Source of the DNA: Phaeodactylum tricornutum CCAP 1055/1
Taxonomy: Eukaryota > Bacillariophyta > Bacillariophyceae > Surirellales > Neidiaceae
Assembly: GCF_000150955.2 (NCBI RefSeq)
Contig: NC_011682.1
Coordinates: 716,897-780,896, forward strand
Length of the DNA stretch: 64,000 nt
Direction: 5' to 3'
Shown: piece after piece, positions 4,969 through 46,028 of the stretch
How the letters are laid out: the number at the start of each line of letters is the position of its first letter
How positions within the stretch are numbered: position 1 is the first letter of the stretch
Translations under genes and position numbers: made by a program
The notes under the pieces: model-generated
What the model was told of the DNA's origin: nothing
The model's database searches: none
The model's input: the letters and a program-made list of their open reading frames with translations, nothing else

Positions 4969-5134
4969 TGTCCTATATTGAGGACCCATCCTCAATAAAG
5001 GACATTTTCCAAACCTCTAGAACTATACATTATAATCAGATCTGTTTAAAACAAATGCTACCATCGTGTTCCCCATGCTCTGAAATGTCTTGGGAGAGCA
5101 TGGCATGCTCTATTTCTTAACATTTTAAGAGCAT
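4969..5134. repeat. Left subterminal dyads of the piggyBac element
   Basis: Two kinds of dyad lie inside the left end. One is TGTCCTATATTGAGGAC followed by a diverged reversed copy ending AAAGGACA (4969-5004). The other is two alternating pairs of ATGCTCT and AGAGCAT (5075-5101 and 5105-5134), each able to form a hairpin. They are candidates for transposase binding sites; that role is inferred from position only. Confidence 0.7.
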
Positions 5135-5277
5135 TTGTCGTCAATGCTAGGGTTACTCAAAATATATTTGCTTTTTTTTTCGACCCGAACTGAGCCATTC
5201 CCGAGTCAATGTAGTGTCCATTGCATCCCTCATAGTCAACCTTTTATACACAACTTACACCAAGCTCATTAAAAATT

Positions 5278-7539
5278 ATGTCAGAAGGGGATTCCCGCCG
5301 AAAGATTGGTGCTCAGGTGACAGCGAAGGCCTGTCATGTTGTCCATTTGAGTGAGTGTGCTCGGCGATACGGTGCTTTGAGGACCACCAAGGTCGTTGTG
5401 GGGACTGTTGTGGAGGTCAACAATACCAGAAAGGCGCCAAACAACCGTGTATCAACCTTCATTACTGCTGACTTTGATATTGGTGGAGGATCAGTCAAGC
5501 GGAACACTCTGAACATCCGTAGCGTCAAACTCTTCAAACCGGACCAGTCGACAGTACCATCCAGTCCCGCAGCACCAATACCGGCAGTAGACAACGCAGA
5601 CACAGATTTGGCCGTTCCAGAGCAAGAGGAAGGAGAAGCGGTCTTGCAGGAGACTTCTCCTGATGAAGAATTGGAATTTCCAGCACAACCGATGATGGAA
5701 ATTGGAATAGCTGCGGGGGAACAGGTAGCAGGACCTACCGCACAAGTAGCCACGCAGGTTTGGGGTGTTGAAGACGCTTCCTTTGTAATGGCTCATGAAA
5801 CAAAGTGGTATGCTGACGAGCAAGCTACATTGATTGATATAAATGGCAGTGTCCAAAGTAAGCAGTTTGGCATCAATACACCAATTGGCGACCTTCTTGG
5901 TCCAGACTCTGACATTGATGGAAAATATTCGCGGCTGCAATATTTTCTACTCATGTTTCCACCCGACCAACTGAGCGCCATGTGTCAGCTAACAAATGTG
6001 CAGCTTGCCCAACAGAACAAGCACTGCATGTCAACAGGAGAGCTGCTTCGATTCTTTGGCATTCTAATTCTTGCGACAAAATTTGAATTTAGCAGTCGAT
6101 CGCAATTGTGGTCCACAACCGCGCCGTCAAAATACATTCCTGCCCCTGCATTCGGAAAAACAGGAATGTCGCGGCAGCGCTTTGATGATCTTTGGCGAAA
6201 TATCCGATGGAGCAACCAGTGTCCTGAACGGCCGGAAGGTATGAGCTCCCATACGTTTCGGTGGCAACTTGTCGACGATTTTGTTGAAAGATACAACAAT
6301 CATCGAGCCAATACTTTCAAACCATCTCATCTTATTTGTGTGGATGAATCAATGTCGCGATGGTATGGACAAGGGGGGGAATGGATAAATCATGGACTCC
6401 CCAATTATGTGGCTATTGACCGAAAGCCCGAAAACGGTTGTGAGATTCAAAATGCCGCATGCGGCTGTTCGGGTATCATGCTTCGATTGAAGGTTGTAAA
6501 GGGTAAGACAGCAGCAGAAGATGATGGGGACTACAATGAACAGTTGCTGCATGGAACAAAGATCCTCAAAGAGCTTGTCCTTCCTTGGTGGTGGACGGAT
6601 CGGATTGTTTGCGCTGACTCGTATTTTTCATCTGTCGGTACAGCTATGGAGTTGCAGCGACATGGTTTGAGATTTATTGGAGTTGTAAAAACAGCAACAA
6701 AACAATATCCGATGAGATACCTTTCGACTTTAGAGTTGAACCAGAGAGGCGAACGGAGAGGGCTTGTGATGCGAGATGTTGATACAAATTATAGCACTCT
6801 GTTGGCTTTTGTGTGGATGGACAGGGACCGCCGATATTTTGTGTCGAGTGCTTCCAGTCTGGATGCAGGCAAGCCCTACGTACGCTATCGTTGGAGACAG
6901 ATTGACCAATCTCCGGATGCAGATCCAGAGAGGCTGGAAATTATCATTCCACAGCCCAAAGCAGCGGAATTATACTATTCTGCATGTGGGATGATTGACA
7001 GGCACAATCAAAGTCGTCAGGATACACTGATGCTTGAACGAAAGTTGGGTACAACAAATTGGTCGACAAGGGTTAACCTCTCAATATTTGGAATGATTGT
7101 TGTTGACACTTGGTTGGCCTACAGTCTGTGTACAGGAATAGGAAGAGCTAACGGGAGAGAAGAAAAGCAGAAAGACTTCTACACTGCCTTGGCTGAGGAG
7201 CTAGTGGATAACCAATACGACAATGTTGGAAGTCGCAGAGTTTTCGTGGAGGCAAATTTGGACAATGACAGCCCAGCACTTTCAAGGACTACGGGAGAAC
7301 CAAGAAGTGGCCTGTACGCACACCTAACACCAACCAAAAAAAGAAGAAAGAACAAAGACGGTAGTTTTAGCAGCAATAGACTACAAGGACGATGCTTGGT
7401 GTGTTCCAAGAAGACAACATATGTTTGCTCAGTGTGCAAAGATGAAGAAACACCTCACTCCAGAGAACCGTGGGTTTGTTATACCACCAAGGGGAAGCTG
7501 TGCTATGCAAACCACATGGCTACCTGTCACGGCGCCTAA
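5278..7539 (+). CDS. piggyBac-family transposase (DDE_Tnp_1_7 type)
   Basis: A 753-residue, intron-free transposase that would excise and reinsert the surrounding element by cut and paste. An N-terminal region with a conserved basic segment (residues about 25-95) leads into an acidic, Pro-rich linker (100-160). The catalytic domain then carries the three Asp expected in piggyBac enzymes: CVDESMSRWYG (about D356), VCADSYFSS (about D447) and GMIDRHNQSRQD (about D574). Other family signatures are GLPNYVAIDRKPENG and FIGVVKTATKQYPM. The C-terminal 50 residues hold a Cys/His cluster (CLVCSKKT..CSVCKDEE..C..H...CH), the cross-brace zinc finger typical of the family, preceded by a basic nuclear-type stretch (PTKKRRKNK). 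No stop or frameshift is seen, so it is probably functional. It starts 312 bases inside the left repeat. Confidence 0.95.
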   Translation: MSEGDSRRKIGAQVTAKACHVVHLSECARRYGALRTTKVVVGTVVEVNNTRKAPNNRVSTFITADFDIGGGSVKRNTLNIRSVKLFKPDQSTVPSSPAAPIPAVDNADTDLAVPEQEEGEAVLQETSPDEELEFPAQPMMEIGIAAGEQVAGPTAQVATQVWGVEDASFVMAHETKWYADEQATLIDINGSVQSKQFGINTPIGDLLGPDSDIDGKYSRLQYFLLMFPPDQLSAMCQLTNVQLAQQNKHCMSTGELLRFFGILILATKFEFSSRSQLWSTTAPSKYIPAPAFGKTGMSRQRFDDLWRNIRWSNQCPERPEGMSSHTFRWQLVDDFVERYNNHRANTFKPSHLICVDESMSRWYGQGGEWINHGLPNYVAIDRKPENGCEIQNAACGCSGIMLRLKVVKGKTAAEDDGDYNEQLLHGTKILKELVLPWWWTDRIVCADSYFSSVGTAMELQRHGLRFIGVVKTATKQYPMRYLSTLELNQRGERRGLVMRDVDTNYSTLLAFVWMDRDRRYFVSSASSLDAGKPYVRYRWRQIDQSPDADPERLEIIIPQPKAAELYYSACGMIDRHNQSRQDTLMLERKLGTTNWSTRVNLSIFGMIVVDTWLAYSLCTGIGRANGREEKQKDFYTALAEELVDNQYDNVGSRRVFVEANLDNDSPALSRTTGEPRSGLYAHLTPTKKRRKNKDGSFSSNRLQGRCLVCSKKTTYVCSVCKDEETPHSREPWVCYTTKGKLCYANHMATCHGA

Positions 7540-7751: not shown

Positions 7752-8105
7752 CTCTATATATTTCTTGACTGTACACTTCCGTTCTGTGACAAATCTGGTT
7801 AAGTAAATAAACTCCGACAAATGATCTTTTCTAACGACTGACTTTGGCACGACTTCTTCAATAAAAGAAGAAATCCATCTACATTCGAAATCTCGTGCGA
7901 GTGGCGTGTCGAGCTGGTGCCAGTGCCCCTTGCTGTTAAGGTAATGACTGCGGAACAAAATATCACCTACGCAATCGAAGCTCAAGGCGTTTTTCTCCAT
8001 ACAAATCACGCACCAACATGACAGCACTTTCTCATCTTCCCGCGGAAGGTCGTCGGTCAGCGGTACCTGTTCCGAGGATTCGTCGTGTCCGCACTCGTTC
8101 AGCAA
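7746..8105 (-). CDS. Possible small hypothetical protein beside the transposon
   Basis: A minus-strand frame of 119 residues, MLNECGHDESSEQVPL to KKYIEH. It has a Cys-rich patch (CWCVICMEKNALSFDC) and a mixed, protein-like composition. Its stop codon lies in the CTAG of the transposon end. Because that sequence would also be present in the empty target site, the insertion need not have truncated the frame. It overlaps the 5' part of the receptor gene on the other strand, which argues against it. I do not recognise a family. It may equally be chance. Confidence 0.25.
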   Translation of the reverse strand: MLNECGHDESSEQVPLTDDLPREDEKVLSCWCVICMEKNALSFDCVGDILFRSHYLNSKGHWHQLDTPLARDFECRWISSFIEEVVPKSVVRKDHLSEFIYLTRFVTERKCTVKKYIEH

Positions 8106-10326
8106 GGGTGCATCACGTGATTCGCCTCTGCAGTCTTTATTCGGCGATTCTTGTCGATGCCCAATTCACTTCCGCTCCGGCAGCTCTACCGTTGACTGGC
8201 AACCCGTCTTGCCCCTGTCTGCAACTCGACGACACGAAGCTTACTCCCATTAATGCTGTCGATCTCACACCCAGTGTTTTGCGGAACATCGGCAACGGTA
8301 CCGTTGATTGGGCAACCTACGGAATTGGTTGTCGAACTCACGATGCGCGTACGCCGCAGTGTACGACATCGGATTGCGCGAGACTCCAAGACGTAGTCCC
8401 CACGCCTTTTCGTTGCGACTTGTCCTGGTGTCAGCGATCCTGGTGCTTTGTCGATCCCAACCATTGTGGCTTGTTGTACCGCCGATCTGCCCGCTTGCCA
8501 CGTTCGGATCGCTTCTACTCCTACGCCACCTGCGGGGACGCCGACTCCTTCACCAAAAACTACCGCTTCGCCGGACTGGAGGGACAAGTGCTGAAGATTG
8601 GGCTCAACTCCAACACGGGTGGCTGGTTGGGGGCCTACTCGTCGGATGGGCAGCAATTTAAGGGTCCCCTGTCCAAATGGTCCGGTCCAACGCTGGAATT
8701 CGTCAAGGAAGCCGCCGTGCGGGGAAACTTTTACGTGAATCTCACCCTTCCGCCACTGGAGCTGCAAGCACGGTCCTCGGACTTTTTTGGGAGCCCCAGT
8801 GATTTTGATTACTGCGTCTACGCTACCTCGTTGGGTTTTTTGGATCTTTGTGTGGCGCAGTACACCATTACGGACGTTCGGGCGTCCACGACGGATTGGT
8901 TGCTGCTAGGCTCTTCAGGAATCTACCTCGTAGCTTCCTACAACGTCAACGATTCCTGGGGTGCGTTCAAGGCCTCCGTCTCGACCATCTTTCGACCCTT
9001 TACCTTTGGAACATGGATGTTTATCGTCTTTTTCGTCATACCGGTCCTGGGCTGTCTCATGATCTTTCACGAATTTGGGAAATCGGGGTCGGCCTATCCA
9101 AGGGAAGAAATGGTCGTCATTACCCGGAGTAATGGCGAGCACGAGTTTCGCAAACTCCCGGTACCCTTCGTGCAGCATATTGTCAAATCCATCTACATTA
9201 ATTTCTTGGCCGTCATGCAGTCGTCCTACGAGCAAACGGTCATTTCGATTGGCGCGATGCTCAACCTGTTGGGCATTTCATTCTTCATTCTGACAATCAT
9301 TGCCGTCTTTACAGCCAACCTGGCGGCCATTTTGTCTTCGGAAAGCCGAAACGCGAATATCGCCAGTCTAGACGACGCCATTCGAGCTGGTTTTCGCCTT
9401 TGCAGTGAGCGCAAGAATATGGAAAGCGTCGTGAAAGCGTACCCACAAGTCAGTCCCAACATTTTTGCGGTAGATCCGCCCGAGTTGGGCGGAGATGGTG
9501 AGCCCGGATTCACTTGTGCGGGTTGCAATAGTCGACGAAGAGTTTTCGAGTTCATTGATCCCATTAAGGCCCACAGTGATCCTCGGTACTGTCACGCTGG
9601 GCTCGCACCGGAAGAAGACCTGGAAGTGTATCAGTCACAGGGAGATTACTGCAATAAAGTCATTGTTGGCTCCCCCGTACAGCATGTGCAGACTGGTTTT
9701 CCCATTTTTGAACTGGTGGCACCGTCCCTAGTTTCTTTCTTTCTCAAGCTAAAAAACGAAGGAGTTTTTGATCGTCAAGTCTTGACCGGGAAACCGCAAT
9801 CTCAATGCCCGACTGGAGAAGGCGAAGAAGGTGAGGCCTTGGGTATAACACAATTGAGTGGTATCTGGGTAGTGAGTTTCGGGTTTGCGATAGCTGGATT
9901 GTTGGTCACGTATGTACAACCGTATGTGCAACCACACATCCAGGCGTACTACCAACAAGTAGAAGGCCGGATACAAAAGCTCCACAAGCGCGAGTAAGTA
10001 GAATTCCGAAGAGAGAAAGTCTAACAAACTGCGGAAATGCGTGACCATTTGTGCTGACCCTTTGTTTCCAATTGTGGCTTGTTCCTTTCTCACGTAGTCA
10101 ACGCGGTGGTCGCATCGAAGCGTTGGAATATGGGGACCCCGTTCCAAGCAGCGCACACAACCTGATGTTGAATACGCGGTGGGGATCCGATCTACACTTG
10201 TCCGATCCGCAAAGCTTCAAGCATCCGATCGAACAAGCCGCGTCGTCCCCACCGGTATCCACCTCGGCCAGGGCGCGGACCCAATCGGAGGATGAGACTT
10301 TGGACAAAGGTGGCGTGCGCTATTGA
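8018..10326 (+). CDS. Ionotropic glutamate receptor-like channel with Cys-rich ectodomain
   Basis: Two exons, 8018-9993 and 10098-10326 (104-nt intron, GTAAGT to GTAG), 734 residues. Residues about 60-175 form a Cys-rich domain (CDLSWCQRSWCFVDPNHC, then YSYATCG). An iGluR core follows: S1 with DLCVAQYTITDVRA, M1 at about 328-350 (TFGTWMFIVFFVIPVLG), a re-entrant region, and M3 at about 408-440 ending VFTANLAAILS. That last motif corresponds to the SYTANLAAF gating signature of glutamate receptors. The S2 half-domain is followed by M4 (about 607-630) and a cytoplasmic tail encoded mainly by exon 2. This layout indicates a ligand-gated cation channel at the cell surface; the ligand is unknown. 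No N-terminal leucine-binding-type domain precedes S1. The extreme N terminus is basic and a poor signal peptide, so the true start may lie in an unseen upstream exon (an acceptor-like CTCTGCAG ends at 8133). Confidence 0.88.
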
Positions 10327-42273: not shown

Positions 42274-45200
42274 CTACATTAGAGACTTGCGCATGAACTC
42301 CTCATAGCTAGCCCCGAAAAGACGGGCGACGTCTCGTCTAATTTCGGCACGGGTAGGAGTCCACCCCGAAGCTACCATCTTGGCCATTTCATCCTTCAGA
42401 ACTGCCGCAATTACGGCTCGCGAGTGGGGCCATTTGTATAACAGCTGATCAAGAACCCTGGCATCGCTGTGTTGCGCCGTAAAGGCAGTACCTAACATTT
42501 CAATTCGCATTTGGGTAATCTCTCGAATAATGCTTGGGTTGTTGCAGAACCACCAACATCCGTAAATGTGCAAATTGCGAAACTTGGACGCCAAGACACA
42601 AGCCTCGTGTTGGTTGTTACGAGATAAAAAGGTTGCGAGAAAGCGAACTTTTGGAAACCTGGAACACAGCCGCCCAAGCATACCAGCATCAGCAAACGCA
42701 ACCATACCATCGCCTGCTTGCTTTAAGGCTGGGTTAACTCTCCGATGCGCTCCAATCTTTAGGGCCACAGGTAAATCGCGCTCCTCGCAGATTTTCATCA
42801 ACACGTTGCCCAAGAAATCACTGTTCTCATTAATAACACTCGGACTGTCATCTTCTGTGCTATTGCAGCTAATTTCTTGGTTCTTGAGCTGAGCGAAAGC
42901 GCCCGGGAGTTTCAATGCCTCTTCATTAATACCGGTAGATGTCGAGGAACCCAAGGTGCCTTTTTCCAGCAGAAAGTCATGCGGCGTCGACGCCATCATG
43001 TATTCCGGACTCATTGTATCGCACCAGTCTCGTAAGTACTGACGCGCCCCCTCGATAGTATTGTCGTATCCCGAGCCCTTCAAAGCCAATTCAATCGTTC
43101 GGCAATCACCAGTCAGGAGGGGATCTACACGTAAAGCAGAGCGATAATTGTCCGAATAATCTTTTGGTTTAGGACGCCAGTACCTCTCTTCGTTGGGATC
43201 AAAGGGAATGTTTGTCATAATGTTGTACCGGACACCCGATTTGCTGAAAACTAAAGAACTGAACTTCTCTGCTCCGGTTAGGCCTTCGTCCCGGAAGCCT
43301 TTGTAAAATTTACGAATCAAGTTTAAGTCGCGGTCCGCTAGTGCGTTCTCTAATCCGAGAGACACCAAAACTGTAATGACTCCGCGACATGCCTCCGAGA
43401 GCGGTGATCTCTCCACAAAAAGTGCCCGCCAAATTGTATCCGCTTGCTGTTTCTTTGGCAAAGCATAGAAGCCGTCTGGTGTCATCGATGCCGGAGCAGT
43501 TATAAAGAACTCCGCCACTAAATAATGCTGCGCAAGAACAAAGAAAAAGTGTGAAAGAATGTTTCTGGATACTTTCTTATAAGTAACGGATCGCCCACTG
43601 CTACACATACATAAGTCAATAGCTCATCAATACCCCACAAGCAGAGCGGGCCGTGTGAGGGTGGCAGCAAGTGAGTATGCAAATCAATGGCGATAGCGGA
43701 GGCTACTTCAGAAGTTACAACTGTATCGATCGTATCTTTGTGGATAGACAACAACAGTAGTCGGCTGTGATTCGGGACAGGACTACGTCGAAATGCTAAA
43801 GGACAACCCTGACTCAAACAAGACACATCTGCCATAGATGTACACGCTGTGGCGAAACCATCAATAAAGGCGCCGTCGTTGTCCCCGATTTCTTTCAGAA
43901 TACTCAAAATGTCGTCCCCGACAATCATGCGAGCGTATAGAGTGGACACTCCAGCCACGAGGTCATTCATGGCCCGCTTGTCGGCAATCGCGTTTAAATT
44001 TCCGCCGTCGGTTGCCAAGAGGTACGACCGGACTATTCCATGGTATGCTACCGGCTGCCGCGGACCACTACAAACTAAAGCACCCAAAACATCTGACAAT
44101 GGTTTTTGCAGTTGAGTTCTGCTGCCTACTGGCACTTTGCAGGAGCACCGAAATTCATACCAATCTTGACTCAGATTGTAGTGCAATCCATCAGCGTATG
44201 TCGTAGTTGCGTCTTCCGTGTTATTGAGTTCTGACCCTTGTAACCAACCTGTATAGACACCTTTAGCGGTTGTAAACGTCATTTCTTCCGTCAATGAATA
44301 GCGACTACTTTTCTCATCCTCACTATCTCTCCTGCGGTCTGGCGTCAACCAGCGCAGCAAGCATGCCCAAGCAAACGCCATCGCGACATTGAGCGGCTGT
44401 GTAGTCTGACTTCTTGTTACCAGATCTAGCACAGTTGGTCCAAGGCGGATTCCGCCCTTAGCTGCTCCGTTTTGAGTAATGAAAAAAGAACTTAGACCAA
44501 AATATGGATGCGTCAGCCTTGATCGCCAGTCTTGCCATACTTCTAAGGCGGCTGTAGCGTGGGGTTCCAGTCCCGACGCCCCGCCAGCAGCTAGAATCTG
44601 TGTTTCCACAAGCGCATCTAAGTATGCCAAGAGCAACGGTCCAGCAACTCCGTCAACAGTGAGTGCATCTGTCATTGTTCGTTTAGTCAGAGCCAGTATG
44701 TGTGCTAAGGCTGTGTGCGTGCCATTGGCAACCCGTAACTTTAGAGCCAAGTCAATTTCGAGTTCGGCCCGCGTTGAGCGTACTACTACCCCGTGGGATT
44801 CTTTCATTTTATGAAACGCTACTGGAAGATCCCCCTCAGAATCAAGAATTACCAAAGCCTTGGCCGGGACCGGTTCTGCCTTGGGAACCATTGGGTCTCC
44901 TTCACGATGGGATGTGATCCGATCGACCATGGTATTCAAAAATACAACCTTGTCGGCCAAGAAACGCAACATTCTTGCATTGTCCTGCGCCAAACTATTC
45001 ATATGACGCGCCAAGACATCCCCATTCTGGGGAATGTTGTCCATATCGATGACACAAAGCTTTTTGTGTGGGGTTAGAGCTGGTTTCCAAAGGCTGCGTT
45101 CCTCCCACATGTCTTGATAGTACTCCAAAAAATCGTACAGGTCTTTCATAGCCTGGGTCTCGGATGATGCCAAGCCCGCCTCCGTTACTCCTACACCGAT

Positions 45201-45647
45201 AACCGAGGGTCCACTAGTCTTCCGGGAAACGTCATAAAAAGCTGCCTTGTCTTCGACTCGTCCCCACGAAAATGCCCCGTAGCATCGGTATCGGTCAGTC
45301 TTTATTTCGCCCGATGGCAGGACGGTGTCCACCGGAAACGTTCCGTTGTCATCCCCATCCTGCGTCGCCATATATTCCAGAAAGGAGCGTCCCCGCGTTT
45401 GCACCAAAACTGAATGACTAAAGGAGTTTAAAGCCGGCACGAGAACGGAACGCAAAAACCGTCCCGTCCCCAAGCACAGACAATCCAAATTCTGTAGGCT
45501 CGCCGCCTCTTGGTCGTCAGAACCATTTTCCCGTGGCAACCAACAACGCATTCCCCCAGTGTCTTCGCTATTGTTGTCAATTACAGTCATGTTGTTGTTC
45601 CCGCCGATGTGTATAATAGTGAGCCTGATATTTATCGAATGCATCAA
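42274..45647 (-). CDS. Fused uronate reductase (UxaB/UxuB-like) and uronate isomerase (UxaC-like)
   Basis: Two exons on the minus strand, 45647-43611 and 43527-42274, with an 83-nt intron (GTATGT to TGCGCAG), giving 1096 residues. The N-terminal half is of the mannitol dehydrogenase family: GTGRFLRSVLVPAL near residue 60, GVGVTEAGLASSET, DMDNIPQNGD (about 201), FLNTMVDRIT (about 237) and LKLRVANGTHTALAH, the segment that carries the catalytic Lys. From about residue 650 it becomes glucuronate isomerase: DLHTHLLPPSHGPLCLWGID with the metal-binding HxH, then ELLTY-HYLVAEFF across the splice, ERSPLSEACRGV, YGCWWFCNNPSIIREIT and QHSDARVLDQLLYKW. In bacteria these are separate enzymes of hexuronate catabolism: the isomerase makes fructuronate or tagaturonate and the reductase reduces it with NAD(P)H. 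The fusion would do both steps. No targeting signal is clear. Met at residue 20 is an alternative start. The order and bacterial character suggest gene transfer; this is inference. Confidence 0.88.
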
Positions 45648-46028
45648 CCATCGTTGCTTTCAATATCCTGGCGTGAACCTGCTGATGGTTTGGTCCGTCT
45701 CTGACATTCCTCGAGAAGCCCTACCCCTTGAAAGGCTAGGTCTTCACATCCACCGTCAAGTGTAGTGTGATTGGATCGATCCTTCCGCCCCTCACAGCGT
45801 GTATGCGAAAACTATTTTCTAGACCTACCAAAATAAGAACGGCAATTTTCGTCTAGTTGACTGTGACTATTAACAGAGAACGCAGCAATAGGATTGGACC
45901 GGAGCGGAATCAATGAAGTGGTGGTGTATAAGACCTTTGGCGAACTAGATACTCATCAGTGATTTGGCACTGTATGAACTTTGACCAAGAAAGACAAGGC
46001 TGAGAAATACTCATCGAACCGTATCCCA
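45648..46028. other. Intergenic, no gene seen
   Basis: About 380 bases between two minus-strand genes. Probably the promoter of the fusion gene. Confidence 0.4.

Follow-up and report, generated by a model that had tools for sequence, protein, structure and literature searches.

The window analysed here is a 64,000-nucleotide stretch of the Phaeodactylum tricornutum CCAP 1055/1 genome (contig NC_011682.1), and all positions of the fusion gene refer to it. On the minus strand, a frame of 713 aa (43518-45659) and one of 449 aa (42274-43623), both free of stops, were joined by splicing into one gene with two exons and one intron at 42274-45644. Splicing at 43610/43528 gave an uninterrupted frame of 1097 codons, including the stop, counted from 45647. 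The first in-frame ATG lies at 45642-45644 and the stop codon TAG at 42274-42276, giving a fusion protein of 1095 residues. A preliminary description of this DNA had given 1096 residues, counted from the TTG at 45645-45647; its single spliced gene was recovered, whereas its length applies only to that start. Exon 1 (43611-45644, minus strand) encodes residues 1-678, comprising the whole reductase, a linker and the start of the isomerase. The intron (43528-43610, minus strand) is 83 nt long and has canonical GT-AG borders (GTATGT...GCGCAG). Exon 2 (42274-43527, minus strand) encodes residues 679-1095, which form the remaining isomerase barrel, and ends with the TAG. The true start of the protein may be Met1 or Met19. 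An out-of-frame ATG was also seen on the minus strand (45645-45651), seven bases 5' of the first in-frame ATG and overlapping the start.

Without splicing, read-through of the first frame meets a stop about 30 codons past the junction. Other GT-AG pairs also leave the frame open, but among the pairs listed only 43610/43528 regained TYHYLVAE, a conserved stretch of Bh0493-type isomerases that is rebuilt across the junction. This junction is taken as the right one because exon 2 then starts with H679-Y680-L, which aligned to H49-Y50-L51 of Bh0493. The motifs singled out earlier (NTMVDRIT, DNIPQNGD, DLHTH, CWWFCNNP and QHSDAR) were all located in the protein, with the reductase N-terminal and the isomerase C-terminal, in the order first proposed.

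Exon 1 carries the isomerase HxH motif in the same frame as the reductase, and the rest of the barrel is encoded in exon 2, whose frame by itself is insufficient for a complete isomerase. Because of this arrangement, we read the locus as a fusion rather than as two genes, that is, as one predicted protein that joins two enzymes and keeps the catalytic residues of both halves. It is very improbable that the locus holds two transcription units sharing a stop-free stretch, one giving a reductase mRNA and the other an isomerase mRNA that starts in exon 1 at Met604. Met604 is the sole methionine between residue 587 and the HTH motif and could serve such a start, but no in-frame stop separates the reductase from the isomerase, only about 60 residues lie between the last aligned reductase residue (587, by forced alignment) and the isomerase domain (651), and the HxH is encoded in the exon of the reductase. 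A second transcript from Met604 may exist, yet it would leave the read-through protein standing.

The surroundings of the fusion gene were characterized by a Pfam scan of 20 other frames in the window (one of 220 aa, and 19 of the 23 frames of at least 250 aa). No Pfam family was assigned to seven, and the matches obtained were eukaryotic in type. The neighbours include THO complex subunit 1 (THO1), beta-CASP and CPSF100 C-terminal domains, and the 2-oxoglutarate dehydrogenase E1 component, and further matches in the window were to arrestin-like, RING finger, TPR and DDE_Tnp_1_7 transposase families. The transposase frame (767 aa) adjoins a ligand-gated ion channel frame (window positions 5236-7539 and 7940-9997, respectively). 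No dehydratase or sugar kinase was found by Pfam among the 20 frames. The GC3 values of the two halves of the fusion gene (0.50 and 0.51) fall inside the range of six neighbouring frames (0.44-0.58), a set that leaves out 2-oxoglutarate dehydrogenase and DUF1295, whose rows were out of frame. Because its neighbours are eukaryotic in type and its GC3 lies within their range, the gene fits well into a eukaryotic contig.

Close relatives of the isomerase are present in bacteria, which could point to an assembly chimera or bacterial contamination. We consider such an artefact hardly credible, given the spliceosomal-type intron, the eukaryotic-type neighbours on both flanks, the matching GC3 and the outcome of a search with the whole protein of 240 verrucomicrobial genomes, in which nine genomes matched, all on the isomerase part, and the reductase part had no match.

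The C-terminal uronate isomerase domain

The C-terminal half (residues 651-1095; 42277-43694, minus strand, split by the intron) was assigned by alignment to the uronate isomerase type of Bh0493 from Bacillus halodurans (PDB 2q08, 2pnk, 2qee, 3hk5 and others), not to classical UxaC. It matched 2q08 with an E value of 2.3e-97 in two segments (chain positions 20-230 and 240-413), the likeness thus extending over positions 20-413, and the identity to Bh0493 was 51% over 315 common columns. Bh0493 residues H26, H28, Y50, D355 and R357, which we take to be active-site or metal-ligand residues, are all kept in the alignment. Their counterparts, all encoded on the minus strand, are H656 and H658 of the metal-binding HTH motif in exon 1 (43671-43679), Y680 in the second codon of exon 2 (43522-43524), and D1033 and R1035 (42457-42465); the metal ligands on which the earlier proposal depended are therefore present as H656 and H658. 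The fusion differs from Bh0493 in an insert of about 40 residues (864-905), in the intron placed ahead of the codon aligned with H49, and in the reductase that precedes the isomerase, which stands alone in the bacteria examined.

The preliminary description had called this half UxaC-like. Its membership of the uronate isomerase family stood, but the type did not: no match to Pfam PF02614 (classical UxaC) was found up to an E value of 1, and pairwise comparison with E. coli UxaC gave no significant similarity (E 1.8). The bacterial Bh0493-type proteins of loci L024 and L129 likewise had no Pfam family at E 0.001. Since these bacterial proteins of the same kind are also unrecognised, the silence of Pfam on the C-terminal half reflects incomplete library coverage and does not count against the assignment. 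Classical UxaC catalyses the same reaction as the Bh0493-type isomerase and belongs to the same superfamily.

The N-terminal polyol dehydrogenase/reductase domain

The reductase domain extends from residue 54 to approximately 587 (43884-45485, minus strand), with a confident local match for residues 54-434, residues 435-587 being placed by forced global alignment alone. Profile comparisons identified it as a very divergent member of the long-chain polyol dehydrogenase/reductase (Mannitol_dh) family. The E values were 2.9e-9 against a UxaB-type profile (34 rows) and 2.5e-8 against a UxuB-type profile (21 rows), compared with 0.075 to 0.65 in 24 control comparisons, in which six other proteins of the window and six shuffles were each run against these two profiles. 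The mannitol-dehydrogenase family named in the preliminary description was thereby upheld. YdfI alone gave 1.9e-6, and a combined 56-row profile gave 3.2e-13 over residues 54-434 (340 columns), a value to which the controls, run with the single-family profiles only, do not extend. A mannitol-1-phosphate dehydrogenase (MtlD) type was disfavoured, its 13-row profile reaching an E value of only 0.0044 against 2.9e-9 for the UxaB type. Among E. coli proteins YdfI was the best match (5e-7), followed by UxuB (4e-4) and UxaB (0.012), and a single-sequence search of the PDB returned ydfI with an E value of 0.0022.

Curated models scored this half low. Pfam PF01232 reached 25.8 bits, below its cut-off of 27, NCBIfam PRK03643 (tagaturonate reductase) reached 31.5 bits (E 7.4e-8) against a cut-off of 359, PRK15037 (fructuronate reductase) 13.8 bits against 603, and the D-arabinitol 4-dehydrogenase model 16.8 bits. 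An AlphaFold prediction of the N-terminal half alone from Met19 had a mean pLDDT of 32.4, which is too poor for use.

Twenty-five of the 35 columns conserved in at least 90% of the 56 rows are kept, including G-x-G-x-F-x-R, T-E, N-G, V-D-R-I, K302, N307, H310 and K396. The K302-x4-N307-x2-H310 motif (44715-44741, minus strand), placed by alignment to the reductase family, contains the catalytic lysine that the earlier proposal required. N203, D241, K302, N307, H310 and K396 aligned with N191, D230, K295, N300, H303 and K381 of mannitol dehydrogenase 1lj8, presumably its catalytic residue and partners. N203 is kept as in UxuB types, whereas UxaB types have L there, and at the position of 1lj8 R373, as read by eye from the alignments, the fusion has F, UxuB has Q and UxaB has S. 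With UxaB and UxuB the N-terminal half thus shares the profile match, the cofactor-loop glycines, K-x4-N-x2-H, VDRI and NG. It differs from them in pairwise identities of 22-31% over parts (approximately 23-24% in the UxaB-type profile alignments), long inserts, scores under the curated cut-offs and a mixed signature, in which nine of the 42 columns that discriminate UxaB from UxuB are UxaB-like, six UxuB-like and 27 neither.

This distance from all references, together with the 27 columns that resemble neither uronate reductase, would suit a fused protein with an active isomerase and an N-terminal domain that either uses a different substrate, such as mannitol, arabinitol, sorbitol or the like, or serves a structural or regulatory role. 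We regard this reading as unlikely, though a serious one. The alignment of K302, N307, H310, D241, N203 and K396 with the catalytic set of 1lj8 speaks against it, as does the fusion itself, since a uronate isomerase favours as partner the enzyme of its next step; moreover, the isomerase and UxaB-like reductase kinds are clustered in one verrucomicrobial genome, G293. A putative ketouronate reductase is the assignment that we prefer.

Relatives, gene clusters and origin

A six-row isomerase profile matched 17 of 387 verrucomicrobial genomes, with 11 full-length proteins (E 1.7e-170 or better), the G001 match and five weak matches. None of the 11 full-length isomerases is fused to a reductase. 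Two longer bacterial frames were rejected as fusions: the upstream part of a 767-aa frame in G293 coincides in part with a short-chain dehydrogenase gene that is read in a different frame, and a 722-aa frame in G166 contains a stretch without similarity to the N-terminal half.

Among the 11 loci, a uronate-gene cluster surrounds the isomerase in one, that of G293 (L129). There, the genes within 8 kb of the isomerase include a UxaB-like reductase (37%; 344 bits, under the cut-off of 359), an ExuT-like carrier (29%, with 286 residues aligned) and two dehydratases, members of the UxaA/galactarate dehydratase family that match E. coli UxaA at 49% and 32%. The UxaB-like reductase was also the sole match of the N-terminal half in the 11 loci (27%, E 1e-7). 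G293 is an independent link of a Bh0493-type isomerase to ketouronate reduction. The same region (L129, 2564-14796) also holds a LacI regulator, an RraA-like protein, an SDR and a possible glycosidase.

In the other 10 loci, homologues of UxaA, UxaB, UxuA, UxuB, ExuT and UxaC were not found within 9.9-16 kb. Family searches covered six of these 10 genomes. Each of the six encodes a Mannitol_dh_C protein away from the isomerase locus, and any match to the tagaturonate reductase model was weak (G111 and G143). Because 10 of the 11 loci are without the queried uronate homologues, the Bh0493-type family may have further roles and may not always belong to a uronate pathway. In L024 (5247-9233) and L025 (4389-8871), which come from two genomes of the other verrucomicrobial isomerase group, the ORFs flanking the isomerase looked alike by eye and no uronate genes were found. 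The isomerase may have another role there.

The nearest isomerase found was on an eukaryote-like contig, L001 (G001), the single locus matched in a scan of genome contigs, with 56% identity over the 315 common columns, compared with 49-53% to six verrucomicrobial proteins and Bh0493. This stand-alone isomerase has WWFCNNPSII and FTAQHSDARVLDQL in common with the C-terminal half of the fusion. It has several introns, none of them at the intron site of the fusion gene, and an in-frame stop, which could sit in an unrecognised intron, lies upstream; no trace of the reductase was found in the 13 kb of L001. The contig (1-13155) belongs to a record titled Verrucomicrobiaceae MAG and has a eukaryotic look, with GST, BRCT and protein kinase domains in three of seven scanned frames. 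Because the contig looks eukaryotic and its isomerase gene is split by introns, the MAG is probably contaminated by a eukaryote that also bears a Bh0493-type isomerase.

In a 14-row tree, the L001 copy and the C-terminal half of the fusion grouped with support of 100/99, apart from 12 bacterial rows. Since the bacterial sample consists of one phylum (Verrucomicrobia) and Bh0493, this grouping shows the kinship of the two eukaryote-like copies and not their origin, and a donor outside this sample is conceivable.

For the N-terminal half, the best match in the sequences searched (plasmids, phages, viral contigs, and verrucomicrobial genomes and loci) had approximately 27% identity. In the plasmid collection, its only match was on a Sulfitobacter plasmid (26.5%), and it had no match in the phage collection or viral contigs. 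The isomerase had no match in the plasmid or phage collections. Profile A1 matched one viral contig, the IMG/VR contig L124, which carries a distant isomerase relative (32%) at 5001-5909. The WWFCNNP pattern occurred in four stretches of viral contigs that were dissimilar to either half at E 1e-3, and the KLRVANGTH pattern had no match there. The source called "probably bacterial" in the preliminary description was not demonstrated, as the C-terminal half clusters in the tree with the L001 copy and away from the bacterial sequences, and the best match of the reductase is only at approximately 27%.

Predicted reaction and metabolic context

A uronate isomerase followed by a ketouronate reductase is known as a bacterial route on separate proteins. 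From the sequence relationships of both halves, we infer that each is active and that they act in sequence, and the fusion is fairly probably a bifunctional uronate isomerase/ketouronate reductase. The metal-dependent C-terminal barrel would isomerise a hexuronate, converting galacturonate to tagaturonate or glucuronate to fructuronate, at a metal centre where D1033, R1035 and Y680 would take part. The NAD(P)H-dependent N-terminal domain would then reduce the ketouronate to an aldonate (altronate or mannonate), with K302 as the predicted acid-base residue and N307 and H310 near the carbonyl. These roles of K302, N307, H310 and the isomerase residues are presumed from the mechanisms of their families. 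The aldonate would enter the KDG/KDPG route, and the intermediate might be channelled between the halves.

Galacturonate appears a likelier substrate than glucuronate because Bh0493 reportedly turns galacturonate into tagaturonate (PMC2684587) and because the G293 cluster is of the UxaA/UxaB type. Conversion of glucuronate to mannonate is a possible alternative route for the fusion.

The isomerase and reductase kinds are both known. No fusion of the two in a eukaryote was found in the open-access literature searched, as judged by titles and the opening lines of abstracts, a result that falls short of proving it unreported.

Algae possess KDPG aldolase. A more far-reaching reading, which we consider distinctly speculative, is that of a eukaryote-specific bifunctional enzyme located where algal vitamin C synthesis branches at D-galacturonate. 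It would draw galacturonate off, by way of tagaturonate and altronate, into KDG and KDPG and so feed the algal aldolase without a need for 6-phosphogluconate dehydratase. Secondary-plastid photosynthetic eukaryotes are reported to make ascorbate via D-galacturonate (PMC4396506), and the same is reported for diatoms (PMC8234872). The presence of an Entner-Doudoroff pathway in diatoms is disputed: PMC10847513 cites the claim of Fabris 2012 of such a pathway in Phaeodactylum and concludes that photosynthetic eukaryotes are without it. If the downstream enzymes exist, the uronate route would yield KDPG without the disputed dehydratase.

Diatoms are described as having glucuronate-bearing wall polymers and uronic acids in their exopolysaccharides (PMC4584364). 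The fusion points to a possible, so far unrecorded way of reusing galacturonate and other sugar acids and, if this is true, a eukaryote would be able to recycle the uronates of its wall or mucilage. With D-galacturonate as a vitamin C precursor in secondary-plastid algae, a competing sink would matter to the control of ascorbate.
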